Part shown: positions 38,690 through 58,955 of the stretch, one piece after another
Numbering within the stretch: position 1 is the stretch's first letter
How the letters are laid out: every line of letters starts with the position of its first letter
Source of the DNA: Gongronella butleri
Taxonomy: Eukaryota > Mucoromycota > Mucoromycetes > Mucorales > Cunninghamellaceae
Direction of reading: 5' to 3'
Assembly: GCA_025201375.1 (NCBI GenBank)
Contig: JAIWZP010000002.1
Location: forward strand, 1,302,001 to 1,366,000
Length of the DNA stretch: 64,000 nucleotides
Program-made: the position numbers and the translations under genes
The notes under the pieces: generated by a model
The model's input: only the letters and a program-made list of their open reading frames with translations
What the model was told of the DNA's origin: nothing
Databases searched by the model: none

Positions 38690-40890
38690 CCACAGGGTAC
38701 GAGCATTGCTGTAGCAAACATTAATTTCAAGATTTTTCAAGGTCGAGTGATTCAATTTGCGAAAAAAAAAAGTTCATATCATTGGAGGCTTGCGTCGACT
38801 TTCCACTGATCTAAATTTGGCGCCATGCAATCAAGTTCATCGGGAAAAAACGCGTACAATATTATTTTGGCCCTGAATTTTCATTACCAAACACAAATCT
38901 CGAGATTTCTCGAGATTGAGTAATCCGATTCGCGAAAAAAACTTGGAATCGTCGAAGTTTTGAGTCGATTAATCATTGGTCTAAATTTGGAGCCATGCGG
39001 TCAGGCTTGTCTGGAGAAACGCGTAAAATATTGTTCGGCACTGGGTTTTCACTAGCAAATACGGTTCTCGAGATTTCTCGCAACTGAGTGATCCGATTCG
39101 CGAACAAAATTAATATCGCTGGAGAATTGGGTCTACCATCAACAGGTCCAAATTTGGCACCAGATGAGTAAGTTTCTGAAGAAGCGCCAGTTTCATAGGC
39201 GTAAATGGGGTAAATTCACCAACATTTGGTCTCGTACAGCGGCAACGGCTGAGCGCCCCGATACGTGAGTCACCTCAAATGAATCAGTATTCAAGCGCGG
39301 TAAAAGCGCTTGCAGTTTGGGGACATCGCGTCGAGTTCTCGGCGAGTCAGCCTTCAGGAGTCGTTTTGATTCTGATTTGGCCCTGACTTTAAGCAAAATG
39401 CATTTTCTCAGGACTGAGTAATCCGATTTGCGAAATAACTTGACATCATCGGTTTTTTGCGTCGAGTACCCAATGGTTTAAATTTGGCGCCATATGGCCA
39501 GGCTCATCGAAAGAAACGCGTAAAATATTGTTTAACGCTGGGTTCTCGCTAGCAAACACAAACCTCGATATTTCTCGGAACTGAGCTATCCGATTCCCGA
39601 ACAAAATCTACACCGCGGGAGAATTGGATCTACCCTTAACTGGTCCAAGTTTGGGGTCACATGAGCAAGTTTCTCAGAAAGTGCCAGTTTCATAGGCGTA
39701 AAAGGGTAAGATCAGCTCCATTTGGTCTTGTACAGCGGCAACGGCTGAGCTCCCCGACGCGTGAGACACCTCAAATGAATCAGCGGGCAAACGCGGTAAA
39801 AGCGCTTGTAGTTTGAAGACATCTTGTCGAGATTTCGGCAAGTTTGACTTGAGGGATCCTTTTGATTCTGTTTTGGCCATGAATTTATGAAAATTACATT
39901 TTCTCGGAACTGAGTGATCCGATCTCTGAAAAAACCTGGAGTCATTGACATTTTGGGTCGAATATCTACTTATCTAAAGTTGGAGCTTTATGGTCAGGCT
40001 TGTCGAGAGAAACGCGTAAAATACTGTTTTGTGCTGGATTTTCACTAGCAAACACGAATATCGAGCTTTCTCGCGACTGAGAGATCCGATTCGCGAAAAA
40101 ACTTAACAACACTGAAGAATTGGATCTACCATCAACTGGTGCAAATTTGAGACTAGGTGAGCAAGTTTCTGAGAAAGCGCCAGTTTCATAGGCGTAAATC
40201 GGGTACGATCAGCAGCATTTCATCTCGTACTGCGGCAACAGCTGAGCGCCCCGACACGTGAGTCATCTCAAGTGAATCGGTGGTCAAACGCGGTAAAAGC
40301 ACTTGTGGCTTGGGGATATCGCTTCACGTTTTGAGCGAGTTAGCCTTGAGGGGTCTTTTGGATCCTGGGTTGGCCCTAATTTTACGAAAAATGCATTTTC
40401 TCAGGACTGAGTGATCCGATTTGCGAAAAACTTGACTTTGTCGGATTTTTGCGTCGAGTAACCTAAATTTGGAGCCAGATAATCAGCCTCATCGAGAGAA
40501 ACGCGTAAAATAGTATTTTGCGCTGGGTTTCACTACCAAACATGAATCACGAAGTTGCTCGCTACTGAGTGATCCGATTCGCGAACTAAGTTAAAATCGC
40601 TGGAGAATTGGGTCTACCATCAACTGATCCAAATTTGGCACCAGATGACTACGTTTCTGAAGAAGCGCCAGTATCATAGGCTTAAACGGGGTAAGATCGC
40701 CAACATTTGATCTCGAACCGCGGCAACGGCTAAGCGCCCCGATACATGAGTCACCTCAAATGAATCGATGGTCAAACGGAGTAAAAGCGCTCGTGGTTTG
40801 GGGATATCGCTTCGAGATATCGGCGAGTTAGCCTTCAGGGGTCGTTTAGATTCTGATTTGGCCCTGATTTTATGCAAAAAAATTTATTGA
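38690..40890. repeat. ~495-bp satellite, array 2 (about 4.4 units)
   Basis: The marker 'GAGAATTGG-TCTACC' recurs at about 39123, 39619, 40115 and 40603 (spacing 488-497). Within each unit, 'CTGAGTGATCCGATT-GCGAA' followed by 'AAATTTGG-GCCA' recurs at ~165 and ~330 offsets (38746, 38915, 39085, 39414, 39580, 39910, 40075, 40403, 40565). So the 495-bp unit is a trimer of ~165-bp monomers, one of which has diverged. The unit is shared with array 1. Not coding. Confidence 0.85.
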
Positions 40891-42798
40891 TTTGGTCAAG
40901 GATTAACTGGCGCAAAGAACGACACCAAAAGCATTTATGCCACCACATCGAGGGGTAATGCGCGATTTTACTGCAACGCGCGTATTGCGACGCGTCACGT
41001 GACCCCTGAAATGGATTTCAAATCCCGCAGCGCCTTGTAACAGGATCTCAACTTTAGCCAGCCGAATAAACCTGAGTCGCTTTCTCGAAATTGCGCCGGC
41101 CTGCCAAAAATTGAGCCAGTATGCCAAAAATTGAGCCAAGCAATCACTGAAATTTGAGCCGGAGCTGCAAATTGCATACAAAAGCATTTGCTCGCGAACG
41201 AAATGAAAAGAAAAAAGACGACGTGCCAAGAAACGTGAGAGAGTGCCAGCCAGTGAGCAGAACGATAAGTATATCAACTTCGGGAAAAGAAAGAGGCAAA
41301 AGTAAATGAGTCATTACTGGATTGCTTTGGGAAAAATGAGCGGCTGCGGCCTCCGTCGCCGGACGATCCGCAGCACAGACGCGTCTCTGCAGCATGTCCA
41401 AAATTCCTTGCAGACAAAAATTTGAAGCAATGATGGACCCATCCACGTCTTGATGAAAAAAATTGACGAAGCCCTCACTTTGACGACATTCGATCCCACT
41501 CGTCAACCTGAGCATGCTCACCGTTTCACAGAAGATCGGCCACCTGGACGTCATTCGCTGGTTATGCAGTGCGATGCCTGCCAAGCGTGAACACTGAGTA
41601 GCCTCGTGGATTGCTCTTTACGACAGATCCTCGTTTCTTCTCGCCCACACATGCGAGCGTATCATCACCCCTCATCTCTCCGCAACCGTACCAAAAAAAA
41701 CAAGACCTACTTTTTTTCATTTATGACGCAATGACCATGTCGGCATTGTGATATATCGTCGTTCTCCTTGCCTTGTCACAGGTTAAAATAGGAAGGCAAT
41801 TGAGGCACTTTGATTTTCCAATTTTTGCCGTCCAGTGTGTATCCCTCTCAAAAATCGCAATTTTGAAAATCGTGATTATCGTGCGAATCGGACATCCTAG
41901 ACATCCGAGCACGAGATCATTCGATAGGCCTCCTTTTTCTACATCAGATTATCATGCCATCGGTGCCACTCAAGCAAAACTAACTGATTTCTTTCTCCAC
42001 ACAATCTTGAAAATAGATACCTTTTTCTTTGCGCGGTTACACTCGCTGACAAGGAGTACCGCAGGCTGCAGACACTCGATGCGAGTGTGAGTACGATGCC
42101 TTTCTCATTTTATTTGCTGCGTAAAACTATGTACTTACAAAGATACGCGGTTAGGCATCCCTGGCCGCTCGATTCGCCGCCGTGACGACGCGTCTGGCCA
42201 TCTTAGAAGAGGCACGGCTGCGGCATCGGGCATGTCAAACGCATCATGAAAAAAATCACATACATGTCGCGCATACATAATCCACTTTATACGGCCACAG
42301 CCGCCATCTTCTGCCTTTTCTGAGCTTTTTTTTTCTTTACATGAGTTATGGACCTAGCGTCGGCGACATGAAAGGCGCGGGGGCCACGCCAGCTACCATA
42401 TCTGCCCTCGGACCATAATAGGTACATACTGCACAGCTGCAATTGCTGTTTTCAACGTTTTTTTTTTTTTCAATATTTCCTTTCCTTTTTATAAATTATA
42501 AACCTCACGCCACGACTGGGTTGCGCGGGAGTCGGCGCGAAAGCGGCACCGGCTACAACGAGGTCTCATAGACTCACGGAAAGCACTATTACTCAGAGCG
42601 AATTTAATTTATTCAAAAAGAAACAGAAGTTTCAACACTGCATGTTTGCACGCTTGCTTCATAAGCATAAAATTAGACGCACACGCGAACAAATTGATTA
42701 GAACTGATTTCAACAGATGTTCCATCATCCTCTAGAAAAAAAAAAAGGAAGCCGGCGACACGAGATGGCTGTCCATTTTCACAGCTCTTCTTTCTCCA
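40891..42798. other. Intergenic right of satellite array 2
   Basis: No supported gene. T-runs near 42330 and 42461. Confidence 0.45.
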
Positions 42799-43157
42799 AT
42801 GGCTGAAAACCCCAACTTGCCTCCATTGCCCGCAGCTAGCAATGCAATTCGATATTTGATGGTTAATCTACAGCATCTTGAGCGCCTTGATGTCCATACA
42901 CAGCGGTATGCCTTGTCTGCTTACCTTGAACGACATCCGCAGGAGCCACGTCTGTGGGCGCTCCGCGCACTTTTGGAGCGCCACAACAATCATCCGGCAG
43001 TGGCGATAGCCATTGTCGATCAAGGACTACGACACGTGCCTGACGAGCCGTACTTGACGGCATTGCTAGGTGCGTAAAACAACACAAAAAAAAACAAGTA
43101 TTCATCGATTGACTGTTTTTAGGTCAATTGCAGCAAGACCAAGCGCATCAACAATAA
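42799..43157 (+). CDS. Small TPR-like helical protein (101 aa)
   Basis: Exons 42799-43069 and 43123-43157; the join completes GGT (Gly). The product begins MAENPNLPPLPAASNAIRYL. It then contains helical pairs resembling a tetratricopeptide repeat: ALSAYLERHPQEPRLWALRA, then AIAIVDQGLRHVPDEPYLTA. The end is Gln/His-rich. It could be a short TPR adaptor or the surviving N-terminal piece of a longer TPR protein. The clean donor GTGCGT and acceptor TTTTTAG support real splicing. The second exon adds only 11 residues, which is odd; a longer ancestral gene truncated here is possible. Confidence 0.5.
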
Positions 43158-43608: not shown

Positions 43609-44950
43609 ATGGTTATTCACGGTCTCACTAGACTGATTTCGGATAACGTGCCTGGCGCCATCAAAACGAGCGAGATCAAGGACCTCTTTGGCCGCAAGGT
43701 GGCTATTGACGCGTCCATGTGTTTATACCGGCTCTTGAACGTCATGCACCAGCAGGACGGCAAAAGGCTTGTGTCCAGGGCAGGTAAAACGTCAACGTAT
43801 GTGGGCGAGGGCATCATGAATGAGCTAAAAATAGGGGGAGGCCGTTTAAATTGATTTTTTATTATAGCCATTTGATGGACGTCTTCTACAACGCTGTGCG
43901 CATGCTGGAAAATGGCATCGAGCCTGTGTATGTGTTTGACAGCAAGCCGCCTATGATGAAATCGCATGAGTGGACGAAACGCGAGGTGCGTAAAGAGGAG
44001 GACACGACCCAGGACACCAAGTATACTGTATGTGTAACGGCGGAACACAGTGAGGAGTGCAAGCGCTTGCTCAAGGCTATGGGCATTCCGTACGTCAATG
44101 CCCTCTGCAAAGCCAGTGCACAATGCGCTGAGCTTGCCCGCGCAGGCAAGGTCCATGCTGCTGTCTCGGAGGAAATGGATGCTCTTACTTTTGGTGCCCC
44201 CTTGCTCATGTGCCACCTCATTGTTGCAGACCAGCGCGAAATCCCCGTCCAGGAAATCGAACTGCAAAAAGTCCTCGAGTGCCTCGATTTCACGAAGAAA
44301 CAGGTAAAACACCAGAGAGAAAGAGCCAAAACACGTTGCCTCGCACCTTGATTTTGGCTTTGGGCACGTCTGACCGGCCTTATTCCTCTTTTTTTTTTTT
44401 TATCAGTTTGTCGATCTGTGCATTCTCATGGGCTGCGATTACGCTGAGAGCATCAAGGGTTTGGGTCCGCATAGAGCTCTGCAGTTGATCAAAAAGTACG
44501 AGACGATTGACAAAGCCATCAAGCATATGCCCGAGAAACCCACGACCGTCATTCCCGAGAATTGGGCGTATGCCGAGGCGCGCGAGCTATTCCTTGTCCC
44601 TGAGGTCACTGACGGCGCGACTTATGATCTCAAATGGAAGGAATCCAACGTTGACGAGGTTGTCCAGTTCATGGTCCGCGAAAAGGGTTGCGAGTAAGTC
44701 AGAAAACAAAGGAAAGCACGCGCGTCCTCACTTTTTTTTTTCTCTTCATTGAAAGCGAGGAGCGCATCCGCGAAGGCTGCAAGAAACTGTCAAAAAAGGC
44801 CACAACCAAGACGCAGAAAAATGCCTCGCCAGCGCAGGGAAAAAAGCGAGTAAGACACCATGGACATTGCACATTCGCATCTCACATCTTTTCTTGTTTT
44901 AGCGTGCGGCTGGCGCAGACAGCGCGTTGAAAAAGCACCGCAGTGCCTGA
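43609..44950 (+). CDS. FEN1-like (XPG/Rad2 family) protein with altered active site (350 aa)
   Basis: Exons: 43609-43796, 43868-44303, 44407-44693, 44756-44849, 44903-44950. It is collinear with flap endonuclease 1, which removes 5' flaps in replication and repair. Conserved: GRKVAIDASM (first metal Asp), PVYVFDSKPP (second Asp), the block from CKRLLKAMGIPYV, SEEMDALTFG, and LCILMGCDYAESIKGLGP. Changed: the normally invariant MGI(Q/K)G start is MVIHG. Where FEN1 has PSEAEASC, with two metal-binding Glu, this protein has LCKASAQC. The helical-arch segment between KREVRKEEDTTQ and HSEECKRLL is ~20 residues shorter. The C-terminal PCNA-binding motif (QGRLDDFF in human) is missing; the end is a basic tail. 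I infer a paralogue with weak or no nuclease activity, or a DNA-structure-binding role. Confidence 0.85.
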
Positions 44951-45680: not shown

Positions 45681-48505
45681 TCAACGCTTGCGCGAGTGTG
45701 ACGTATCTTCACTATGGTCATCTTGGTCCTTCAGGTTGAGGACGCGCTCGATTTCACCAGATTCAATGCTCATGATGCCCAATTTCTCGGAATTTGCTGA
45801 GGGGAACCAGAGACGAGTGAAGCACGGCGAAAACATCTTGAAACAAGGGGCTTGACACCAGAACACCGCCCCAATAGCTGCATTACCACGCCAGCTTGGC
45901 CGAGAAGACGTCGGCACGATTCCAGATGCGCTCATGGAGCAGTGGTGCAATCAATGGCTCCATTAGCACCGAGCCAGGTTCAGTGTTGGCCGAAATATTC
46001 CGCAGTCAGAACGAGGAAGATTCCAAATCTTTATGCGCTTGATGTCATTTGGAACTTCCTCGTACTGGCTGCGCGAGGAGGAATCTGTTTCAATCAGGCT
46101 GTCGAATGCCACCAATCGAGGGCCATGGCAAAGCAGATCGGCGGCAGAGATTTGCTCGTTTTGAGGCGGCAGCTGCATCGCAAAGGTCAACTTGATCGCA
46201 CGCACACAATCATGGGTAAGCCTCGGATTTTGCCAAGGCAGCTCGCAGATCACAGCACCTGACAACCAGTCGAAAATGATGTATTTGTAGACACAGCGGA
46301 CGATGCACAGCAAGCGGGCCAAATAAAGCGGCGCGCCAAAGTGATCCATGCTTTGCATGTGTTGCGGGAATCTCAACGAGTGGCAGATCTTTGGCCAACG
46401 CGGATCATACAGCGGCCACCAGGGGAAGAGGGATCTTTGTAAAACAGCAGTCCTTGGGGTCGATGAACACCTGGTCGTCCAATGCATACAGCCGATGCTC
46501 TGTTGTCGGCAGATTGTAGCTTGCAACCCTCATGGAGCACCAATTAAATGGCTGCCGACGACAGAGAAAGGCACATTGGTGCTCCATTTTAGGAATTTTG
46601 CTTTGTACACAAGGCACCAAGACTTTTGGCGTTGGCTAATCATCCTAATCAAAAAAAAAAAATAAAATAAAATAAAAGAGGAAAAAAAATGAGCGCCTGA
46701 GTGATGTTGGCCCTGTTGTCTTTGCCAATGACACCGTAATTGCAGTCCATGCGCACCGGCGCATCCACAAACATGTCAAAGGCGTCCATGCCCTTTACCT
46801 TCTTGAGCGCAGCGCACTGATGCTTATTGTGGGGGTCGCCCAGGAATAATCGCCAATGAGCGGACGGAGCTGTAATCATCGCGGTCCATGTAATTGGCCA
46901 CTTGGTGGGCGTAAAGTGCACAATGGAAAATGTCGCGGCCTTGCTCGAGCGACGTCAGCCAATCCACAAAAGCATCCCAACGACAAGGGCTGTCTTTCGC
47001 AAGAAGACATTGGTTGACGTATTGCAGCGTGCGATGGAATAAATTGGCCTCCGCATCGCGCCACAAAGTCTCGGCCTGTTGGAGACGATCACCCGATGCC
47101 TTGCCGCCCACGGTATGGTCAAGCGCGTTGCTAGCTTGCCCGAGTTGACAAATGGACCAGGTCGTCGGCAGTGATCACTTATTTTTTGGGCGCGCGAGCT
47201 AAAAAAAAAAAAAAAAAAAAAAAAAAAAGACGCGATCAATGGTGCGTTTTTTTTTTTCGTTTTTCCATTTTTTTTCCATTTTTTTTTTTTTTTGGTCGTA
47301 CCCTTGCGCTGCGTGAAACTAAACTTGTCAAAGGCAGGCGGGTGTGGTCAGCAAGATCGGACTCGGCCTCCTTTTGCAGTCAAAGATTGAGAAAGCGCTT
47401 GCACAACGGCTTGCTCATCTTGGCGGGACAGTCGAGCAGCAGCAGCACAACCGCGGCGCACTTGTTCAGCGCTCCAGTACAACAGCTCAAAGCGCCTCGT
47501 GTTAGGCGTGCCAGGACCATAGGTGAGGAAACCGTGATCCAAACTGGGGACAGCAATGCACCACATATTGCGTCCCTCTTGATCAATTGGCGCTGCGCCA
47601 TCGAAATCTGAGTCGATATTCGTCAACATGGATTTGCCCAGGCTCTTGCCATAACCATTCGTCTGCCATGCCTAAAAAAATAAAATAAAAAAATGAGATT
47701 CTTATATGTGTGTCGTTTTTTTTTTTCGTTTACACGCCATGAAAGTGCGAGAGGGCAACAGCCATAAGGAGCACGCCAAGACAGCGCGAGATTGTCGGTT
47801 CCAATTGCTGCATCAGTGCGCAAGAGCCACAGTATCTTGCTCCAGGTGATGATGGTCGCGCGTGGCGGGGGGACACGTCCGCAGAGCCAAATAGGCTGCG
47901 CATTTGTCGTTGTCCGATTCTTGCATTGACTCCAGCCGGTCCTTGCATATGGGAATGGCTCGAAAAAAAGCCAAAAATATTCATGAAAAAATAAGGGAGG
48001 GAAAAAGAAAGCAAGAAAAAGAAAGAGCGAGAGAAAACAAAAAGGGGGGAAACGTGTTGCCGACCCTTTTATCGCAGCAGACGCTGTGGCGGATGATCAT
48101 CTGATGATCGTACATGCAGCACCCCATCGATTTCTCACTAAAAAAGCATTTTATCATCAATGACATCGTTTACAGGAGAGCCAAATCTTTTTCTGACGGA
48201 ATGCCCCATTGGACCCGCTTGCGGTTTTGATCGATACGTAATCATCGTCCACTGGCGGGCGAATTTGCAATCGCCATCGTCTGTGACCACAAAAACGAGG
48301 TCCTTTTCATTAATGGCACCCGTCCGATCATCCCAGTCGCTTTTTTTTTTTTTTTCGTCACAGTGTGCCAATGGCGCTTGGTGGATTGTGTGGACGTACC
48401 TCCTGATTAGTGCTCTGCCTATGACCAATGCTTCTTCCCCCTTGCCCCCTATTTTTTTTTTTTTTTTTTTTGCCCGCAAGACGCCTTACTTTTCAAGCCC
48501 CTGAA
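45681..48505 (-). pseudogene. Broken multi-exon gene, family not recognised
   Basis: On the minus strand, protein-like blocks lie between good splice signals but in clashing frames. From 5' to 3' they include GKGEEALVIGRALIR and RTGAINEKDLVFVVTDDGDC (48.2-48.5 kb). Next are RFELLYWSAEQVRR (47.5 kb) and TLWRDAEANLFHRTLQYVNQ, DWLTSLEQGRDIFHCALYAH (47.0 kb). These are followed by KGMDAFDMFVDAPVRMDCNY (46.75 kb), LYALDDQVFIDPKDCCF (46.5 kb), YKYIIFDWLSGAVICELPWQ (46.3 kb), LLHERIWNRADVFSAKLAW (45.9 kb) and SEKLGIMSIESGEIERVLNL (45.75 kb). At least four frame changes fall inside exonic sequence, e.g. near 47380, 46845 and 46430. Some might be hidden introns. The later blocks look like beta-propeller blades, so an F-box/propeller-type protein is possible but unproven. 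Confidence 0.5.
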
Positions 48506-50314
48506 CAGGGCACACCTCGCGTGACGCATTTTGAACCTTTGACAATGCTATTTGTCGGCAAATACGGATGATAGTCGGCCACTGTTGTGGAGAAGTGACG
48601 CGAAAATTTCAAGGAAGTCCATGCTCCACGGCGGGCATCTCAAGCCAAGCCTCGTTCCCGCCGCGCCGCAAGCGCTCAAGTCTCAAGCCAAGTGTGCCTC
48701 TCGACACGTTGCACGCACAAACCCGACATGGCCTCATTTGTTCAAATCATCATCAAGTTCCGCTCGCTCTCTTTTCTTTTTCCGTCGATCGCATGACTGA
48801 CGCGACATGTGGTCTCAGCAGACTCCGACCACGCGCCATCCTTCATCATGCACATCGGTTTCACTATATTTTACTAACCTCAAATTAAGGATTTGCGTCC
48901 ACAGAGAGCTGAATTTTCAAGGAATACGTTAGATATTTGAGGGAACATGTAAGCAAGCGTTTGGCACGTTCTCTGAAAATATGACATCGATAGCAAGTCT
49001 AGATGGTGAGAAAAGGTGAATGTTGCGAGGAAATATGAGGTTTAGGTTGGGAAAAATAAAATAAAGTGAGAAAATTTTACACTTTGACGCGCTATGCTCT
49101 TGAATTTGCATCTATCCATTTGAAAATCACAGGAAAGGTGCGGCTATACGTGATTTATGTTGTGCTAAAATTTGAAAGTGATTGAACTTCTTCATGCTTT
49201 GCAATCAGGAAATGAGTACATGTCAAAATCGAACAAAAAAAAGCAAAAGACGGAATCATGGCCATTTGATTAGGCCAAACGGATTTGTTTCCTTTAAAGG
49301 GTTCTCAATTCTATTTAAAAATCGCTCCGTGTATAATGGCATCAAGGTCAAATTGAAAACAGGCGAGTCCAGGGCTCAATTTTGAAGCAATTTAATCAAA
49401 ATTAGACACATGGTGCAAGGACCAATGTCACATGGGGTGCTAAAATCTGGCGCTGCCAGCTCATCTGCATCAAGAGCAAATCGACATTTTGTCACTTTTT
49501 TTCAAAATTAAAATAGGGCAAGATTTCCTTTTAGAGCGATTTCAAATTGAAGGCCTGCACTTGCCCTGCGCCTGGCGGCGCACCGGGTTCTGGGGTGTGC
49601 CTTTTTTTTTCAAAACCAGCGTCGTGGCGTGTCTGACAGCAGGACTTCTGTTGTTTTCTTTCTTTCTTTTCTTTTGCTTCGCACGTTGTATCATACACAC
49701 TCGAACAGGGGGGTGAGCGTCTAATGGGATGACTTGTAGGGCACTGACTTGAGCAATCGCCATGTCTGAAAGTCTCGGACCATGCTGTGAGGGCTGCTGT
49801 GCTGGGTTTTCATCTTTCTCCGCTTTAAACGAACAAACAAAAAGAAAGGGAAAGGGGAAAAGGCTATCAAAACATCTCTGGAAGGAAGCAAAGGAAAAGA
49901 AAGCCGGAGGGTGTGTGGGCCAAGAGACCCAGCAGCCCTCTTGCATAGTCAGTCAGTCCAGCGCTTCGCTTGGACATGACGGTCAGATTTTCCAAGGGGT
50001 GCAGTCGAGGATTTGGAAAGAGCAAAATTTAAGTTATCAGATCGCGACGCCATTCAACCACAGGGTTATGTCACCGCAATGACCGATGCAGATGCAATAA
50101 AGAAAGGAGATGCATCTGCTGGTTTCCGCGTAAATTGCAATTTGCCTCTATTTTTCGTCTCAAGTCAAAGTCGACGAAAATTGGCCAAAGAGCTGCGAAA
50201 CAGAGACCACCAGAAAGATCTCAGTCTGTTGTGTACATGGATGTTACAGTAATGATCACTGCAAAAAACGAGATCTGGACAGAATTGATGCGAACAGGCT
50301 GTTTGCAGGACAAC
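48506..50314. other. Intergenic
   Basis: No supported gene; moderately AT-rich with few homopolymers. Confidence 0.45.
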
Positions 50315-50690
50315 TTTGACGCGTGAAAAACCCCGTCCGACATCGTGTTGCACGCGTCTGTTCGTCATCAATTTCATGCACCTGGCGTCCTTCTTACTAG
50401 TGGGCGCCTCGGCGCGGTTCTATGGACGTGTGTTCCCCATGCAATTCGCGCTTGAAGTTTAATCTAAAATCATGAATTGCTCGTCAATCACCAGGTTGAC
50501 CCCACTGTTTTTTTTTGGCGTTTTCCGTGGTTTCTCTCTGCATTGTCTCTTGTGTCGAAGTTTGGTGGAAATCTGAAGACTCATTTTTTCAATTTTTAGT
50601 TTGGGCGCTCGGCACGACTAAAATTTGATTTGCGTGTGGCGTGCCCCGATGCCTTTTGGCACCTTGCAAGTTAGGTGCCATTCGAGGTTT
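50315..50690 (+). repeat. Dispersed repeat, copy B
   Basis: Collinear with the reverse complement of 8040-8412 (see copy A for shared words). One copy-A reading frame reads NSRLKFYIKSRIARQ and copy B reads NSRLKFNLKS-stop-IARQ at the same place, so a faint coding past is possible. Confidence 0.7.
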
Positions 50691-52260
50691 CTAGCCCGCC
50701 ATTTCACACTACACTGTATTTTGGGTCGTCATTGGGACTAGCTGATAGACTTTAATTGCCCTTCTGTTAAAGTGGGCCTTCTGGGGCGCTTCTCCTGGCA
50801 CTCTCATGCAAATGGTCACAAATTTGAAACAGATTACAGTGGAGGCATAAACTCGATAAATGCCAAGTTCGTGGGCACCCAGCCCTCTCCCCGCAAGAAT
50901 GCCAATTTCAAAAAGTCAATTTATTTTTGCGAAGCGCGATTTGGCGCGTTTCTAAGATCCAAACGGCCGTCAATTTCCACCACAGGAAGTGGTTCCAATC
51001 TGTTTGCACCAAACACGCTCCAAATCAGCAATGTTTCATTGACATTACGAGCGTCTTGATTATAATGCGAAGCATTTAGACAATTCCTTCATGCGCTTGT
51101 AGAATGTGACTGGCCAATTCGTCTCAATTTTGGTGCGTGTTCGTTGAGCGCGCAAGTCAATGTATACAAAATTTCAGAGCGACCCGTTCGGCGGATGCTG
51201 ATAGTTCACCTTCCCTGCAAACATGTGTAGCAATTTATCTTTATTTCCCTTCTGGGGCGCAGAAATATCTTACCAAGCATGACACGAGAGTCGCGATCCA
51301 AGCGGACGATTTACTGGGAGAATAAGACAACAACAAAAAGGCCGAGAAAAGAGCAAAGGGAGAAAGTGAAAGAGAACTGAACAGGATAAAGAAGCAAAAA
51401 CAGGGAGATTTGGCTATTTATTCCTTTGAAAAGTGCATTTTGAGGGCGAAACACCTCGGTCATCGCCGTCCACATCGCCAAAAAATGGGTGCAGACATGC
51501 AAATAAGCTCAATCTCCTTTTCCCTTGTCAATGTATCAAAGAGTGCTAAAAAAAACGCAAACAATATTTTTTTTTTTTTTTTTTTTTTGTCGCTGCTGCA
51601 CGAATTCTCTCTTCAGGTCGCTGCTAGACACATGACGCTGCAACGCGACCAACAAAAAATACCCCACAGCGTGATATATTCCCTCTTTTGCCATCATACA
51701 CAATAAAACCCCTTCTCTTCTCCTTGTTTTTGGGCAATATCATGCCATGCGGCGGGGTGTCTGTGCCACAATTAAAACCCAGAAGCGATCTTAGCTATCA
51801 TACCACGACTTGTTACGTCGAAATGGGGTGCCCAAGTGATTTTGTTACAATTTCGCGTTTTTTTTTTTTTTTTTGATTGACGGTGCGTCCTGGGCTATGG
51901 CTCTCCTGAAAGTCGCGCGTGTTCGTTCCAATAATCCTGGTTGGCTGCCGTGTCTTCTCATGGCGTGATTCAGGCTTTTTAGTTTTGCATTGTCGATTTG
52001 TCGTGCTTGTTTTGGGTAAAAAAAAAAAAAAAAAAAGGGGAGGGGGCTGAACGATGCAAGTCGCCAAAACGCACGCTCATGGGCAAGAATAGCTCGTCTT
52101 AAGATTAGGACAAAGTGCGCCGTGTGAGAAAATCACTGGTGGAGTGGGAAGATCATTGGTAAAAAAAAAAAATCGAGCCTTATTCAATTGCTCTTTTCCT
52201 CGGTGTGGAAGAAGATTTTTTTAAAATGATTGATATCCACGGGGGGAAGGAGCCTTTGGT
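50691..52260. other. Intergenic
   Basis: No supported gene. T-runs near 51566-51588 and 51861-51875; an A-run at 52019-52036. Confidence 0.45.
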
Positions 52261-52813
52261 TCATGGGGAAAAGCGTGGGTACATTCGCGCGATGGCCACT
52301 ACAGCGCACTCCAGGTTCGTGGCGTGCGTGTCATTATCTCGAGAGACCACCAGAGACATAATGTGATTGCTTTTGTCATAGCTGTGGTTGTCGACAATGA
52401 CGCGGCAATCGTTGTCGTTGGCAATGATGCTGAGCACGTGCTTGTCATTGGCGTAGGGAAGGTTGTGGATGGCCTCGAGCAGGTCGATGGGGACGAGGAA
52501 ATCCAGCGCGAATCGCTTTCGTGTCTAATGAGAAAAAAAAAGAATGAGCTTCTGGGGAGTTTTTCATGGCAACCTGTCGTACCTTTTGCTCCTTTTGCAG
52601 GATTTCGTCGCGTGTGGCCTCAAAGATGACACGACAGGCGCGACTGACACTCCACTGGTCGCCAATGACAGTGACGACCGAGTCATTTGGCGCGCCTGCT
52701 TCTCGGCGGGAAGGCCGCTCAATGGACACCAAAATGGCTGTTTGGGAATTTAAAACGCGCGAAACAACGTCGGCAAAGCGCGTTTTGATCAGAATGCGCA
52801 TCACAATATACAT
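52261..52813 (-). CDS. Small KH-like protein (164 aa), function unknown
   Basis: Exons 52813-52583 and 52524-52261, phase 0. The donor is GTACGA and the acceptor CATTAG. The product begins MYIVMRILIKTRFADVVSRV, then VVTVIGDQWSVSRACRVIFE. The pattern 'I-IK---A--V---', then 'V-V-G----V--A---I-E' resembles a KH RNA-binding fold, but the GxxG loop is not evident, so I call it KH-like only. The second exon has strand-helix sequence such as LDFLVPIDLLEAIHNLPYAN and ends MYPRFSP. It is transcribed divergently from the Fanzor gene with 558 bp between starts. Whether the two are functionally linked is unknown. Confidence 0.55.
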
Positions 52814-53371
52814 GATGAAAAAGAAGTAAAGAAAAAAAAGAAAATCATGCAGCAAAAAAAAAAGTGGTCTTCAAATGGGAAATGATTCTCCCTCCAGGCT
52901 TGCGGCATTTTTCGTGAGACTTGCGTGCGCGTGATCATCGCTAAATTGATATCTGCTCTGTTTTTTTTTTTTTTTATGATGGGCGTCGTCGACTTTTTTT
53001 CAGCCAGGCGGTGACCCTTTTTGTTCACCCCAAGACATTGCTGCGGTGCCGCGGCACCTTTTCCACCTCCGCTTGTTGAGCATGAAAGCAATTTTCAATA
53101 ATAAAGAGTCGATGCATCCCTCTCAGCCATTTTGCATGAGTGACAATGAATTGATTATTCTTGAAAATGGTCTGCAAGCTCAAGCTTTATACATTCTCAA
53201 GTTTGCCGTTGTGCTGAAAGGAACAAAAAAAAAAAAAAAACGAGCTGTGGGCTGGCAAGCGGAGACTAAAAACATGTCACAGCTCCCGTTGACATAAAGG
53301 AGACACGTCATTTTTTTTCTTTTTCTTTTTTTTCCCACTCTTTTTTTCTTTCTTTTTCTTTTCCGCGTCTT
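52814..53371. promoter_or_regulatory. Shared divergent promoter region between KH-like gene and Fanzor
   Basis: 558 bp between two divergent starts. It contains a perfect 14-bp palindrome GGTGCCGCGGCACC at 53045-53058 and a dense T/C leader directly before the Fanzor ATG. No obvious terminal inverted repeat of a transposon was seen. Confidence 0.4.
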
Positions 53372-55215
53372 ATGGAACGACCTCCCGGTTCAAGATACAA
53401 AGCACACCATCTGGTGACATACGCCATCCTTATCAACATGACACCCGCTGAGTATGCGCTGCACGGGTCGCCAGAGGCGATTGAGCGCGAGGCCGGTGTC
53501 ACCGCTGCAGAAGCATTGATGATCTCTTTGGAAGCAAGAAAAGAGCGACAAGGTAAACAAAGCACCGGGCTCCTTTGGATTTTCTCATCTTTTTTTTTTT
53601 TTTTTTTAACTTGCATAGCCCGAGCCGGTCCGCCGTGCCCATCCTGCGGCTCGCAGTATCACCGCTCCCAGCGCGACCGGCGCTGCCCCAACAACCCACA
53701 AACAAGACAGCGTAAGTCTTCCCTTCCCTTTCTTTTTTTTTTTCCCCCTTTTTACGCACTTTTTCTTTTTTTTTCTTTTCTTTTTTTTTTTTTTTTTTTT
53801 TTTTTAGAGGCCGACCGGCGACGGGGCGACGCCCGATTCAACGCACTTAATGCTAATCCACTAGCGCTGGAGCGAGCGACAAACATGCGTGCCTCGGTCT
53901 TTTTTGCAACAGTGATGCCCAAGAATGAAACGTACACACGTGTGTTTTCGTTTGCGCGTGCGATCCGGCTCGACGTGGTGGACATTTTGCAGCAGCGCAT
54001 CCGAGAATGCCGCGCGGAGCTGAATAAGGTGTTGCCGATCACTGTGCAATTTCTTGCCGATTTCCTGCTTCATCACCCCCAAGAGGATGCCGACTTTGTG
54101 TTTTCGGGCAATGGATTGTACCAGGCATCCATGGTGGTGCGACAGACGATGCGCCAGGACGGTCAACCTGGCGAACGTGCCAACCCACATCCGCGCCTAC
54201 CCGCCGCGCTCCCCGACCACTGGGATCAGTTTGTGGAAGGCACAGGCATCCGCCGCGTCCAGATTCAGGCAGGCTTTACCACGCTGCTCTCAGAGGAGAT
54301 GCGGCCATTCGCAGCAACAATGAAGCGGCACGTCTGTGATCTTCTTGAATTGCGGGTCAAATCGTTTGTCAAATTCAAGATGACGCAAATCGAAGTAAGT
54401 GGATTCTTATCATTTCTTTGGTCCCTTTTTTTTTTTCAAGCAATTGGCTCACATCGATGCTATTTTTATTTTTTTGTTGTTGTTTTTCAGGCACCACCGG
54501 CCGCCATTGCCGCTGCCAAGGAGCTGATCTGGGAGCAATTCAAAAGTGACCAACCATTGATGATACGTCCCGGCGCTGGCGCGCCTCAACAAGACGAAAA
54601 CGGCGAGGAAGATCTGCAACTATTGATGGGCGACCGTGATCACGAGGAGGAGGAGGACGACGACCAAGACCAAGCCGCCCCTGCACGTCGTACGCGCGCA
54701 CGACCGGCCGCCGCAGTCGACAACATGGAGCGCATAGCCGCGCAACACCTGCCCGCCGTGCTTGGCGATGTCGCAGCCGAGGTGCTGGCCATCCTCGAGG
54801 GGCTTGCTGCCGTCAAGCCGCAGGACATGGGCGAAATCACCATTGAATCGCTGCGCTCGCATCCATCCCTGTGCGTCCCCGTCCACATGCACATCATGCA
54901 ACAATATGACACATACCGTGCAGAAGACCCCGAGGACCCTGTCGAGGTCCCCTCGTATACCCTGCTGCCGATGCCAGCGCAGACGCCTCGCTTCCTGACG
55001 TTAAATGCCAACACGCTAAAACAAGTCATACCACGCAGATTCTTGCCCGCTGCGCATCCATTGCGCGACGATCGTGGCCGTCACCGTGGCCTCGCACCTT
55101 TTGTAGACCTTGCGCACCAGTTCTGGGCCTTGATCAACTGGCCAAACCTGGGGCTTGGCGTGGACGAGTAAGAAAAATAGGGAAAAAGAGACGAGAAAAG
55201 AAGACAAACGGCGAC

Positions 55216-55259
<44 letters not shown>

Positions 55260-57015
55260 TTTTTTTTTTTTTTTCTTTTTTTTTTTTTTCTTCCAGGGAG
55301 CACCAGCTTCGAGATGGTTTCATCATGGGCCATCAATTCAACGGCGTCATCCGAACAGACGGCGTCCAAGTTCACATTTGTTTTCGGCGCCTGCGTCGCC
55401 CGCAGCCCCCCGCGCTCTTGGACCGTGACTTGACTCATCAGGCCATCGACCTCTTTTCCGCGTCCGGCGTGGACCCCGGCCGCAAAGTCATTGCCACCTC
55501 CGCCTTTGACCCACTGGACGATGACTTTGACGATGAGCGTGCCAATCGTGCCGTGCGACGAGTGACACTGGCGGAATACCGCACCATGGCTGGCGAGCAG
55601 CAGCGTGCTTTGGCGCTGCAGCACCGCAAGAATGAGCTGCTGCCAGGTCGCGATATCACCATGGCAGATCTGGAGGCACAAATGCCTTGGGTGCGCACCG
55701 CCGATCCGGACACGTACCGTGCGCATGTCGCGTTCCAAATGGAGCACGCCACGACATTGGCTGCCTTTTATGGAGACCACTCTTCTCGCTCCCGATTTGA
55801 AAGCTACAAGGGCAAGCAGAGAGCGCTGGCAACTGCCGCCAATATCGTCCTAGGCGGTGGTAAAAAGTACAACAAGCCGCGGCAGCTGTCACAACAGCAA
55901 GTGCAGCCGCAAAACATGACAAAGTTGCGCCGAAACCGCCGCCATCGAAAGGCCAAGGCGAACCGCCGCCGCCAGGGCCGTCAAGAGCGCGCCATCGCCG
56001 CCGCCGCCGCCGCCGCCGCCACCGCCACCGCAGCACCACCACCAGCCATGGAACAAGCAGCGAGCTCGATGCCACCGCTATCGCAGCAAGACGACGCGTC
56101 CTTCGGCTCTCTCCACGACGACGCTGTCATTGCAGCATTGAACGCCACAGACGTCACGACACCGCCACCACCACCACCTGCTACCATGGAACAAGCAGCG
56201 AGCGCGATCCCACCACCATCGCAGCAAGACGACGCGTCCTTCGGCTCTCTCGACGACGACATTGTCATCGCAGCTTTGGACGCCACAGACGTCACGGCAC
56301 CACCACCACCCGTCGACCCACCAATCCATGATGCCCATCGTGCGCCACACCCGCGAACGTAAATCAAATGCCACGCCGTCTCCTATGGCCGCAAATTACT
56401 CATTTTTTTTTTTTTTGTACAGTGCCCAGACGACCATGCGGCCGCGAAAACGCCAATTCCATGGCCGGAATCGAATCAGCCAAAGTATCCCCGTCGTGGC
56501 GTTCGGCGGTGCGCTGATCGCAAAGGACGCCGTGCGCATCCGCGGCCTGCCTGTGGGACGCTCGTCAATGGTCCTGCGCCATTTGTTCGAACGACAGTTG
56601 CGCGGTCTCGTCATGACGGTCGTCACCAATGAATTCCGCACCTCCCGGGTAGGTATCTGGGTGCTAATGAGCTAAAGAAAAAGTCCACCACTCATTTTTT
56701 CTTTTTTTCTTTCTCTTTTTTCTTTGATAGACGTGCGCTCATTGTCACACGCCTGTGATATTGGCACGACGAGATGGCCGCTCAGTCTTTGGCTCCGTCT
56801 TCTGCCCCTCGTGTGGACGAACCGTCGACCGCGACGCCAATGCCGCCAGCAATATGCTCTCCATCTTGCACTCGCAGTCGTTGGTCGGCCGTCGCCCGCC
56901 ATCAATGACGCGCCCGCAGCGCGCGCAGCAACCTCCACCACCCCAGCGCCGCCGCCGCCGCGGCCCTGCCGACGACCCTGGCGATGCTCGACCAGCGCGA
57001 CGACGTCGCATTTGA
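53372..57015 (+). CDS. Fanzor: eukaryotic TnpB-like RNA-guided nuclease (1036 aa)
   Basis: Exons: 53372-53552, 53619-53711, 53808-54394, 54491-55167, 55297-56358, 56423-56648, 56731-57015; every join keeps frame. The C-terminal half carries the TnpB/Fanzor nuclease signature. FNGVIRTDGVQVHICFRR is the strand before RuvC-I. FSASGVDPGRK follows, with Asp ~572. VPVVAFGGALI comes next, then VVTNEFRTSRTCAHC. The last motifs are VFCPSCGRTVDRDANAASNM: a C-x2-C / C-x2-C zinc ribbon and RuvC-III Asp. The usual RuvC-II Glu is not at VVAFGG; Glu ~937 in NEFRTSR may serve instead, as in rearranged Fanzor active sites. Exon 2 adds CPSCGSQYHRSQRDRRC, a zinc-knuckle-like motif. KLRRNRRHRKAKANRRRQ is a likely nuclear signal. 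Two tandem ~43-residue copies lie between RuvC-I and II. Members of this family use an omega-like RNA to cut DNA; activity here is inferred. Confidence 0.9.
55220..55250. repeat. (CT)n microsatellite in Fanzor intron 4
   Basis: About 15 CT units followed by ~24 T, just upstream of the exon-5 acceptor. Confidence 0.95.
56049..56310 (+). repeat. In-frame tandem duplication inside Fanzor exon 5
   Basis: Two ~130-nt copies each begin ATGGAACAAGCAGCGAGC and share 'CAGCAAGACGACGCGTCCTT' and 'GCCACAGACGTCACG'. They encode MEQAASSMPPLSQQDDASFG and MEQAASAIPPPSQQDDASFG, each followed by a DATDVT/NATDVT end and a Pro run. Confidence 0.9.
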
Positions 57016-57272
57016 TGTAAGCATTGGCCCAAAAATGGGTGGAGAACGAGAGAGGTGGCTTCTCTTGGTGGACACAGCCGAAAAAAAAGGACGACAAACA
57101 AATGTCGACGGATTGGGCTCACATCTTTGTAATGCTGTTTTTTTTTTTCAAAGGACCTCGATGACTCCCCCCCCCGCCCAATGTGCGTAGCCCCCCCCTC
57201 TCTCTCCTTCACCCTTTTGTATACCCTTCTATTTCTTTCTCCTTTTCTTTTTCTTTTTTTTTTTTTTACGCC
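57016..57272. other. Immediate 3' flank of Fanzor
   Basis: It contains GTAAGC at 57017 and TTTTTTCAAAG near 57157, a possible alternative last intron (see findings), then C-runs and a T-rich tract to 57267. Confidence 0.4.
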
Positions 57273-57325
57273 CACGGCTGACACCGTGTACAAGTCGCCT
57301 TAGGGCGGCTTGTTTAAGGTTTTTT
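57273..57325 (+). ncRNA. Candidate Fanzor guide-RNA scaffold: two hairpins plus T6
   Basis: About 260 nt after the Fanzor stop, a 5-bp hairpin (CACGG at 57273-57277 with CCGTG at 57284-57288) is followed at once by a 10-bp hairpin (57290-57299 with 57304-57313, loop TTAG, one G-U pair). A TTTTTT follows at 57320-57325, which could end a Pol III transcript. TnpB/Fanzor guide RNAs map to the 3' end of the nuclease gene in other elements. Location and structure fit; there is no expression evidence. It could instead be a transcription terminator or a transposon-end structure. Confidence 0.35.
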
Positions 57326-57473
57326 ACAATGGTAAGTGAGAAAGAAAAAAAAAAAAAGCGCGGGCATGATCTTTGGCACTCACCGATTGCTTCCCCATTT
57401 GCTCTTTCTACTACAGTAACAGGTGCGACATCATGTTTTATAAAAAAAAAACACTAAGAAGTAAAGAAAGAAA

Positions 57474-58955
57474 CTACAATGTACAGATGATTTTTTCGTT
57501 TTTTTCTGCATCCAACAGCCTTTTGTCATTGAAGGTCTCGATGTAGTCCGCGTGTCCAACAGTGCGAATGTGCCCTGAATTGAGCATTTGCTGCTCAAAG
57601 CTCTTGTAGCGCACAAAAGCGTGACGTCCGCCGCCCAATTCTTTGTCTACAGAAGAACCCAGCATGTGGTATAGCGTCGACACAGCTGTAAGGTTTGGAA
57701 TCTTGCCGACAATGTCGTGCTCCTTGTTAAAAAGGGAATAAACCAACATTAACAAGACGGGCAAGCTGATGACTCCAATGAATAAGATGTATTTTCACCA
57801 TGCTGCCTTGTATGTAACAAAACACTTTCTGCTGAACGTGTCAGCCCATCCGTATTGTGATTTACACTCATGCTCCATCCATAAATCACACACCCCGCCG
57901 CCGGGAAAGCTTTCTGTCTCTGTATTTCGATCCTCGTGCACCACGATCTTGAAATACGTTGAATTGACGGGTATTTCCATCTCCAATTTGTATGGCGTGA
58001 AGCAGTCGTAAAAGCTGCGCACGCAGAGCGCGTCATATTGCAAATTGGTGAAGTTGTTGATATCATCAGGTGGAAGAAATCGCTGATACACGGGACTTGC
58101 GCGCGTGGTGATCCATCGCTTCATGTACACTCTGTTGTTCCACATTGGCACCGTGTTATTTCGTGCGTTCAAGTTGTAAATCATGTAGGTTTCGGCGCCT
58201 TGGTCGCCAAACCAGCCTTCTTCGCATCTTGGGCGGATGTAATCATACTCGCTGCCGAGAATTGCCGTGTTGATCAGCGCGGAGATCAGATGGTTCACTG
58301 TGTAGCCCACCATCGCAATCAGCAGCAGCTGCCACTTTGACCGGAAGCTTGCTCGCTGCGTGTGTCTATAGCCTTTCGTGCCAAACATCATAAGTTCGTC
58401 GATTGTGAGCAGAAAGCTGTTATACATTGCTGTGAGATAGTCGCATCTGTCGAATCGACGCACCACAAACGCTGCGCCATTAGTTTCATCGTCTTCGTCC
58501 TTCTTATCGTTGTCGAGCAACCTTTCTTGTCCGTTTTTTTGGCCTGTTTTTCATATATAATCGCATGCACAACTTGCAGTAGAGCATTACGAATGGAATT
58601 GAGCAAGTAAGAATGGTAAGATCAAGCGCCTTGATGAATACAATTGTCAAAAAGGTGCTTGCATATTGAATTAGGTCGTTGACGTACATTGAACGAGGAA
58701 AAAAAATGAAAAAGTCAGGCAAGACAAACTCTGATGCTTTAAACAGGCTCAACGGTCAGCGCGCCACTCCGTCACGCCAGAGGAATCCATTGTGCAATTT
58801 AGAAGGCAAGTGTGGCACCAAGAACTCCAACCCGCAGCCATAAAAAGCTTAAAAAACAAGTGACGCCGCCCTAAACGCCATAAAAATGTGTTCTGTTTCA
58901 TGTCGACAAGCTTTTCGCTCCATTGGCTCCCTAAGAGCATTTTGCACAATCTCAA
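57474..58955 (-). pseudogene. Broken multi-pass membrane protein gene
   Basis: On the minus strand, hydrophobic segments such as ASTFLTIVFIKALDL, then WQLLLIAMVGYTVNHLISAL, and KYILFIGVISLPVLLMLVYS flank a ~150-residue Cys- and Asn-rich outer domain with several N-x-S/T sites. The frame is interrupted. A TGA at 57795-57797 splits AAW from KYILFIGV, in the middle of a membrane helix. A run of 7 A near 58540 shifts frame between MKNRPKK and GQERLLDNDKKDEDD, and another break lies near 58755. No intron of the size used elsewhere can remove the TGA. Family not recognised; the layout recalls channel-like proteins with a large extracellular loop, but I do not assign one. Confidence 0.55.

Follow-up and report, generated by a model that had tools for sequence, protein, structure and literature searches.

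A large multi-exon Fanzor family in transposons of Gongronella butleri, with right ends that may complete the guide RNA by splicing

Introduction

Genes for RNA-guided nucleases of the Fanzor type may sit in a eukaryotic genome as settled host genes or as parts of mobile elements. We analysed a seven-exon gene on the plus strand (53372..57015) of a 64,000-nucleotide stretch of the fungus Gongronella butleri, hereafter called the window, in which all positions without a locus name are counted. The interpretation that we favour, on the balance of the features described below, is that of a large Fanzor nuclease in a family of transposons with TA targets, with a guide RNA that would originate from the 3' end of the element and be completed by splicing. 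More specifically, we propose tentatively, with a chance that we put slightly below even, that spliceosomal splicing across the right terminus completes the guide RNA of the Fanzor transposons in this fungus. The enzyme belongs to a known kind; what is new is how the right end is arranged.

Structure of the Fanzor gene

Splice signals define the first four exons (53372-53552, 53619-53711, 53808-54394 and 54491-55167), which form a single frame with exons 5 to 7 (55297-56358, 56423-56648 and 56731-57015), and the whole gene comprises 1,036 codons and a stop. All six introns are of the GT-AG type with pyrimidine-rich 3' ends, and a splice-aware alignment of the window protein to the DNA returned the identical introns, which is a check of consistency and not independent evidence. 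The original prediction of a complete, stop-free Fanzor-type gene was thus borne out, including the order of its motifs along the protein (SGVDPGRK, NEFRTSRTCAHC, CPSCG and DRDANAA). The profile search that it had called for detected the Pfam domain TNB (PF07282) at residues 933-983 with 36.1 bits, above the cut-off of 26.3, and this region contains the four-cysteine finger (Cys 944/947/967/970) and the RD pair (residues 976-977) of the OrfB zinc ribbon. The fingerprint of Fanzor proteins is a DPG at RuvC-I together with a Glu six residues before the zinc finger (PMC10711439 section 23). Both are present: the DPG is D572-P573-G574, invariant in an alignment of five paralogs, and the alternative catalytic Glu is E937, six residues ahead of the finger, which starts at C944.

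With 1036 residues, the protein is as unusually long as had been predicted, most Fanzor1 proteins having 600-700 residues (PMC11423790). The distance from D572 to T940 is 367 residues and lies outside the 125-275 residues between the RuvC-I Asp and [TS][TS] of a 2013 survey (PMC3627910), a descriptive range that plays no part in the 2023 definition. This spacing is due to a low-complexity insertion between RuvC-I and the zinc finger, with an in-frame tandem duplication of 138 bp (1.9 copies) in exon 5 (56046..56310, plus strand). At the N-terminal side, exon 2 encodes a CX2CX4HX7C knuckle (C67, C70, H75 and C83), invariant in the five aligned paralogs and duplicated in two of the five aligned relatives (L036 and L037).

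The genome holds 20 TNB matches, and the window protein has 55 exon-level matches in it. Up to 10 kb of sequence was read at each of 20 places, of which 14 are window-like (clade A, L029-L042) and six are of a second kind (clade B, L043-L048). As paralogs of the same genome retain the frame, the motifs and the intron positions, a chance origin of the frame is ruled out. The six introns of the window gene all recur in L033, L032 and L037 at matching positions and in the same phases, one of them within a gappy stretch of the alignment (residues 850-870), and L036 has five of the six, the first being an uncertain one of 590 nt. Since they are common to these diverged copies, the introns predate them and have travelled with the Fanzor family. 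They had initially been taken to show that the gene is domesticated, but in a multi-copy mobile family such shared introns carry no information on the domestication of the window copy. Introns 1-3 (53553-53618, 53712-53807 and 54395-54490) are stop-free and have lengths that are multiples of three, and their retention leaves the frame open through exon 4, with Phe-rich inserts.

The best profile match of the protein in the PDB is the mimivirus TnpB-like protein L79 (E 3.6e-4); L79 and LaTranC, the nearest solved relatives, align across the TNB stretch only. Weighing against the assignment, no solved Fanzor1 chain is among the PDB profile matches listed for the window protein, and in a collection of 5.8 billion proteins no relative was found with the whole window protein at E 1e-3, nor with the five-member alignment as query at 0.01, in searches confined to 8,000 candidates, a limit that could conceal relatives, as could low-complexity words and unspliced entries. 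A fold search with a structure model of exon 3 gave no informative match; the matches listed include no Fanzor or TnpB chain, which weighs neither way. A pattern search of viral contigs gave no match. Judging by its motifs, the window gene almost certainly encodes a large Fanzor nuclease.

A transposon family with TA targets

Downstream of the clade-A genes lies an element terminus, mostly ACAG followed by TA, beyond which the flanks differ. This terminus is present in 10 of 15 clade-A loci (the 14 fetched and the window) and, with one orphan in L042, 11 ends are available in total, 10 of which are closed by TA; L041 has TG instead. A genome scan for the right-type terminus gave 25 places versus two for the reversed control. 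Two of the 25 stand in inverted orientation on the left side of the C45 and C1 Fanzor genes and show the inverted repeat, subterminal repeats included. The left-type end pattern was found at six places, including the two left ends already identified, versus two for the control. The C45 and C1 copies are 89-92% identical inside whereas their flanks are unrelated beyond about 10 nt, and they are therefore independent insertions. Together with C24, an internally deleted derivative of 1.4 kb, they show TA at both ends and inverted repeats, as do Tc1/mariner elements. Such ends correspond to the carriage of Fanzor1 in eukaryotic transposons and not in IS607, but Fanzor2 in such elements also exists, so that carriage alone does not settle the choice between Fanzor1 and Fanzor2.

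No DDE transposase of its own, as Tc1/mariner elements have, was found: among 74 DDE_3 matches listed, none falls in C45:33033-40690, C1:9004-15426 or the window, all being elsewhere in the genome, and a few frames scanned inside the elements gave no Pfam match to other kinds of transposase. Because none of the listed DDE_3 matches lies inside, the element may be described as working like Tc1/mariner without being classed as one.

In the window, a probable relic of the left end was found at 41035..41245 (plus strand), with subterminal AAAAATTGAGCCA repeats and 80.6% identity to the left end of the C24 copy, and the right terminus carries its TA, the target dinucleotide, at 57417..57418 (plus strand). 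The window copy is probably the relic of an element spanning about 41.0-57.4 kb. What speaks against it is that the left-end relic has no tip, matches the end profile weakly (E 0.008) and is separated from the gene by 12 kb into which other sequences have inserted, and that the clade-A terminus was not found in L031, L035, L039 and L040; L036 is cut off by the contig end before the position of the terminus. We nevertheless regard it as very probable that the Fanzor gene belongs to such an element.

Hairpins and splice signals at the right ends

Between the stop codon and the terminus, the clade-A loci contain hairpins that vary in sequence among subfamilies with pairing kept, followed by TTRAGG..TACRAWG and GTAAG. 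The tandem-hairpin block of the window (57270..57331, plus strand) is a candidate scaffold for the guide RNA. In SpuFz1 the scaffold lies at the same place, and the first 14-15 nt of the flank serve as guide (PMC10432273 section 7); by analogy, the flank right after the end of the window element (57419..57434, plus strand) would be the guide-coding sequence. Compared with dinucleotide shuffles, the fold energy of the 62-nt block gave a Stouffer z of -4.1 over eight representatives, from which the near-duplicates L030, L034, L038 and L052 were omitted and the orphan end L042r was kept out, whereas neighbouring control stretches of equal length gave -0.1 and +1.8. In the window, 57265-57331 is identical to the C30 relative in 65 of 66 positions, and exon 7 in 231 of 282. 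These results point to the right-end block as the likely source of the guide RNA. They are weakened by several observations: singly, the fold is not significant in five of the eight representatives (L032, L033, L041, L042 and L037), with a slightly positive value for L041; the hairpins are lost in L042r; the whole 3' stretch of the window folds no better than shuffles (z -1.2); and intron 6, with 80 of 82 positions identical to the C30 copy, is as conserved as the hairpin block, so that patchy gene conversion may account for the conservation of the latter.

Immediately after the block follows an intron-like segment of 85 nt (57332..57416, plus strand), with the donor GTAAGTGAG at 57332 and the 3' splice-site-like sequence CTTTCTACTACAG ending at 57416, next to the terminal TA. 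GTAAG was looked for in 17 of the 19 clade-A-type ends (L054 and L055 were left out). In 15 of them it lies no more than 260 nt away from the terminus, L029 and L057 lack it, and the expectation is about 0.05 per 130 nt. It stands beside the hairpin block in 13 of the 17 ends and away from it in L053 and L056. Twelve of these 13 ends terminate in AG, which is followed by TA in 11 cases and by TG in L041. As a 3' splice site, the right end of the window ranks in the top 1.25% of the 3,279 AGs of the plus strand of the window, with a score equal to those of two of the gene's own introns.

The same layout was found in clade B, in which splice signals were read at 10 of the 20 TNB places (L001-L008, L043 and L048; of the others, two belong to clade A and eight were not read). 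All 10 loci have a GTAAG after the stop codon, and in nine of them it is followed, 61-124 nt further on, by a pyrimidine tract ending in CAG or TAG, L004 having none. Compared with the plus-strand AGs of the window, these 3' splice sites are among the best 0.15-3.3%, and in all four aligned pairs (L003/L006, L007/L008, L043/L048 and L001/L005) homology stops at the AG or at most 5 nt behind it. The elements L043 1672-5543 and L048 8416-4568 are 98% identical at different sites, which indicates a recent transposition. This element of 3.86 kb starts with CACAGC, ends with GCAGTG and is flanked, as judged by eye, by ATA and AGA duplications; clade B would thus represent a different type of transposon, with 3-bp duplications. 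In both element types the left terminus is CTG (once CTA) and the right one mostly CAG or TAG.

The right-end block might instead be merely a sequence bound by the transposase or an intron of the 3' untranslated region, with the guide made elsewhere or left unspliced, an explanation to which we grant a substantial, if smaller than even, probability. Subterminal repeats are typical transposase binding sites. Apart from that of the window, the clade-A termini are weak 3' splice sites: 24-34% of the AGs score as well as the 10 other ends, which fall far short of the introns of the gene itself. Taken alone, the motif ahead of the donor is unspecific, with 11 places (at most one mismatch) versus eight for the reversed control, and the guide RNAs of Fanzor1 pass through the terminal repeat and the target duplication (PMC10711439 section 27). 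The donor is, however, restricted to the right side, as all five left ends examined lack both a GTAAG within 200 nt and an AG at the corresponding place; its distance from the clade-A end varies between 77 and 182 nt; and the same layout recurs in two families with unrelated ends. Clade B in part resolves the doubt over the weak clade-A splice sites and thereby lends some support to a spliced guide.

The right flanks of C12 and C16 (L042 5265-5640 and L059) are 99.7% identical over 376 bp, yet the two elements differ (76% over the last 72 bp only) and end at the same TA. Repeated targeting with one guide might have produced this arrangement, as might exchange between alleles or subtelomeres; one case proves neither.

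State of the window copy

A decaying, inactive copy, with a frame still open through youth or luck, is an unlikely explanation of the gene, although there are signs of damage around it. The left tip is gone, the right end has been shortened by deletion of a repeat stretch, and foreign repeats occupy much of the window between 45 and 53 kb. They include a stretch that C2 and C32 also carry as 78% copies (46404..48572), a copy of a dispersed repeat with more than 30 matches elsewhere, nested between the FEN1-like gene and the Fanzor (49983..51743), and a 97% copy of a C67 stretch (52446..52850). Because of the missing tip, the shortened end and the nested insertions, the window copy is probably stranded, its own mobility lost. 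Most relatives are damaged as well, with stops in L029, L030, L031, L034, L035 and L040, a frameshift in exon 3 of L032, which the aligner had bridged as an intron of 47 nt, and mere fragments in L038, L039, L041 and L042. By simple codon counting, however, dN/dS between the window gene and its two nearest relatives is 0.30 (L030, dS 0.53) and 0.23 (L029, dS 0.83), distances over which no stop has arisen in the 1036 codons, whereas the damaged pair L032-L034 gives 0.56. Six sub-stretches compared with L030 and L029 gave 0.27, 0.18, 0.24, 0.29 and 0.14, and once an undefined value as dS was saturated; the values against L033 (0.25), L032 (0.23), L034 (0.29) and L037 (0.25) come with a saturated dS of more than 2.

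The open frame and these low ratios are also what would be expected of a host gene domesticated from a Fanzor, with a cellular role unrelated to the element. The damaged tips of the element agree with it, as do the TPR-like and FEN1-like neighbours described below, both of which are open, the latter with a dN/dS of 0.18 (90 codons) against the host FEN1. Against domestication stand the introns, common to the relatives, and the hairpins, donor and terminus of the right-end block, which were retained and would be superfluous for a domesticated nuclease. Furthermore, other diverged copies are open too: L033 is clean, L036 is open up to the contig end, and the frame of L037 is open but, by eye, no longer encodes the second CxxC of the zinc finger. 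We consider domestication improbable.

Linked TPR-like and FEN1-like genes

A TPR-like gene of two exons and about 101 residues (42799..43157, plus strand; frame open, join made by eye) lies 1.8 kb inside the left end both in the window and in C45, and all six TPR matches listed in the genome adjoin a clade-A Fanzor within about 11 kb. It is followed by a FEN1-like gene (43609..44950, plus strand) of five exons and 350 residues, with an open frame and changed catalytic-site residues. Three of the eight XPG_I places of the genome (window, C25 and C45) have a TPR gene on one side and a Fanzor on the other. Over the stretch compared, the FEN1-like protein of the window is identical to the host FEN1 at 66 of 90 positions. 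In an alignment with solved FEN1 it has Lys, Ser and Glu at the positions of the catalytic Glu158, Glu160 and Asp179 of FEN1, whereas the host FEN1 is unchanged; the C45 gene is changed at Glu160 and Asp181. Because the catalytic residues are altered, we infer that the FEN1-like protein acts as a DNA-binding partner and not as a nuclease. A common origin of the FEN1-like genes of the elements is doubtful, as that of the window has 66 of 90 positions in common with the host FEN1 and those of C25 and C45 are only about 31% identical to the window's, with a different strand as well. That these genes adjoin a Fanzor merely through a shared location at contig ends is improbable: several loci do lie near contig ends (C1, C45, C54 and C23) and the FEN1-like genes do differ in sequence and strand, but the association extends to all six TPR places listed, and the element ends of C45 and of C1 enclose both genes. 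The linked genes suggest partner proteins for the RNA-guided nuclease.

Genomic surroundings

The window is part of contig C23 of the 33.0-Mb genome, the Fanzor gene lying about 36 kb from the contig end. It also encodes Chs7, a chitin synthase export chaperone (243.6 bits), as well as septin and Xrn1 domains, and the genome contains 48 Chitin_synth_2 matches, in agreement with the predicted fungal chromosome; bacterial contamination is ruled out by the introns and the fungal neighbour genes. Rfam and tRNA scans of the window gave no match.

A 496-bp tandem repeat (38981-40880, 3.9 copies) adjoins the left-end relic; related units are present in L038, L039 and L046, and it is possibly subtelomeric. 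A stretch of about 150 bp (49790-49950) with the inverted ends GGGCTGCTG..CAGCAGCCC, which by eye also occurs in the C45 and C1 elements, in the left part of each, is perhaps a small non-autonomous element. Within the C45 and C1 elements, a frame on the minus strand (L032 81-587) without Pfam match contains NPADAASRD, reminiscent of a retroelement RNase H. Directly behind the window element, on the minus strand (57474-58550), lies a membrane-channel-like gene, which by eye we take to be mucolipin/polycystin-like; the frame scanned had no Pfam match. Weak TNB matches at C2:489573 and C32:248211, in frames of 813 and 785 residues with one and two internal stops, lie 5.6-6.4 kb from the copies of window 46404-48572 and perhaps represent a third Fanzor-like clade.

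Discussion

The sequences show directly the core motifs, the introns shared with the relatives, the ends of the elements and their independent insertions, the linkage of the TPR gene and the constraint on the protein; the following model goes beyond them. The gene would belong to a family of DNA transposons that have inverted ends, insert at TA and, since no DDE_3 transposase was found in them, are probably mobilised in trans. The guide would be formed by RNA that originates at the 3' end of the element, with the hairpins behind the stop codon as scaffold. The spliceosome would remove the stretch from GTAAG to the right terminus, the terminus acting as 3' splice site, and would thus fuse the scaffold to the adjoining DNA sequence, the first ~15 nt of which would be the guide. 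The nuclease would then cut an empty site that matches, and the element would be kept or restored when the occupied copy serves as template for repair. In the window copy, the frame and the right-end RNA block would have remained intact after the probable loss of mobility. The predicted spliced scaffold of about 50-65 nt, plus TA and guide, is close in size to the guide RNAs of PpFz1 and SpuFz1, with 75 and 90 nt (PMC11423790).

The window protein resembles the Fanzor1 proteins SpuFz1, GtFz1 and PpFz1 in its DPG, alternative Glu (PMC10711439 section 23) and TNB zinc finger, and the RuvC domain of PpFz1 likewise contains an insertion, about 100 residues long (PMC11423790). It differs from Fanzor1 by its N-terminal zinc knuckle and by a larger insertion before the zinc finger. 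As in Fanzor1 loci, the gene is followed by a terminal repeat and a flank-derived guide would be used (PMC10432273 section 7), but here splice signals lie between the candidate scaffold and the flank. Multi-exon Fanzor1 genes in mobile elements are known from the Helitrons CRe-1, -2 and -3 of Chlamydomonas, with 5 and 10 exons (PMC3627910, the main text of which does not contain the word 'intron'). Unlike those Helitrons, the present elements have inverted ends, with TA in clade A and with 3-bp duplications in clade B. Fanzor1 elements of the Tc1/mariner type likewise have inverted terminal repeats and a TA at either end; the present element differs from them in that no DDE_3 transposase was found in it.

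IStrons, a kind of bacterial transposon, carry TnpB together with a group I intron, the self-splicing of which removes the element. Splicing and guide RNA overlap at the transposon end in IStrons as they would here, but in the present case a proposed spliceosomal intron between scaffold and flank would complete the guide. A literature search by titles and beginnings of abstracts gave no matching account of a Fanzor with a splice site or with a flap endonuclease, which leaves room for a report in print outside its reach.

The described guide RNAs of Fanzor proteins run from the element into the flank, and a spliced guide would differ from them. If the proposal is true, the maturation of the guide hinges on eukaryotic splicing, and the terminal repeat need not fold as RNA. 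This could explain why Fanzor proteins fit many kinds of transposon ends, and splicing would constitute a eukaryotic addition to a bacterial RNA-guided nuclease. Besides the question of the guide, the locus adds a family of very long, multi-exon Fanzor genes.

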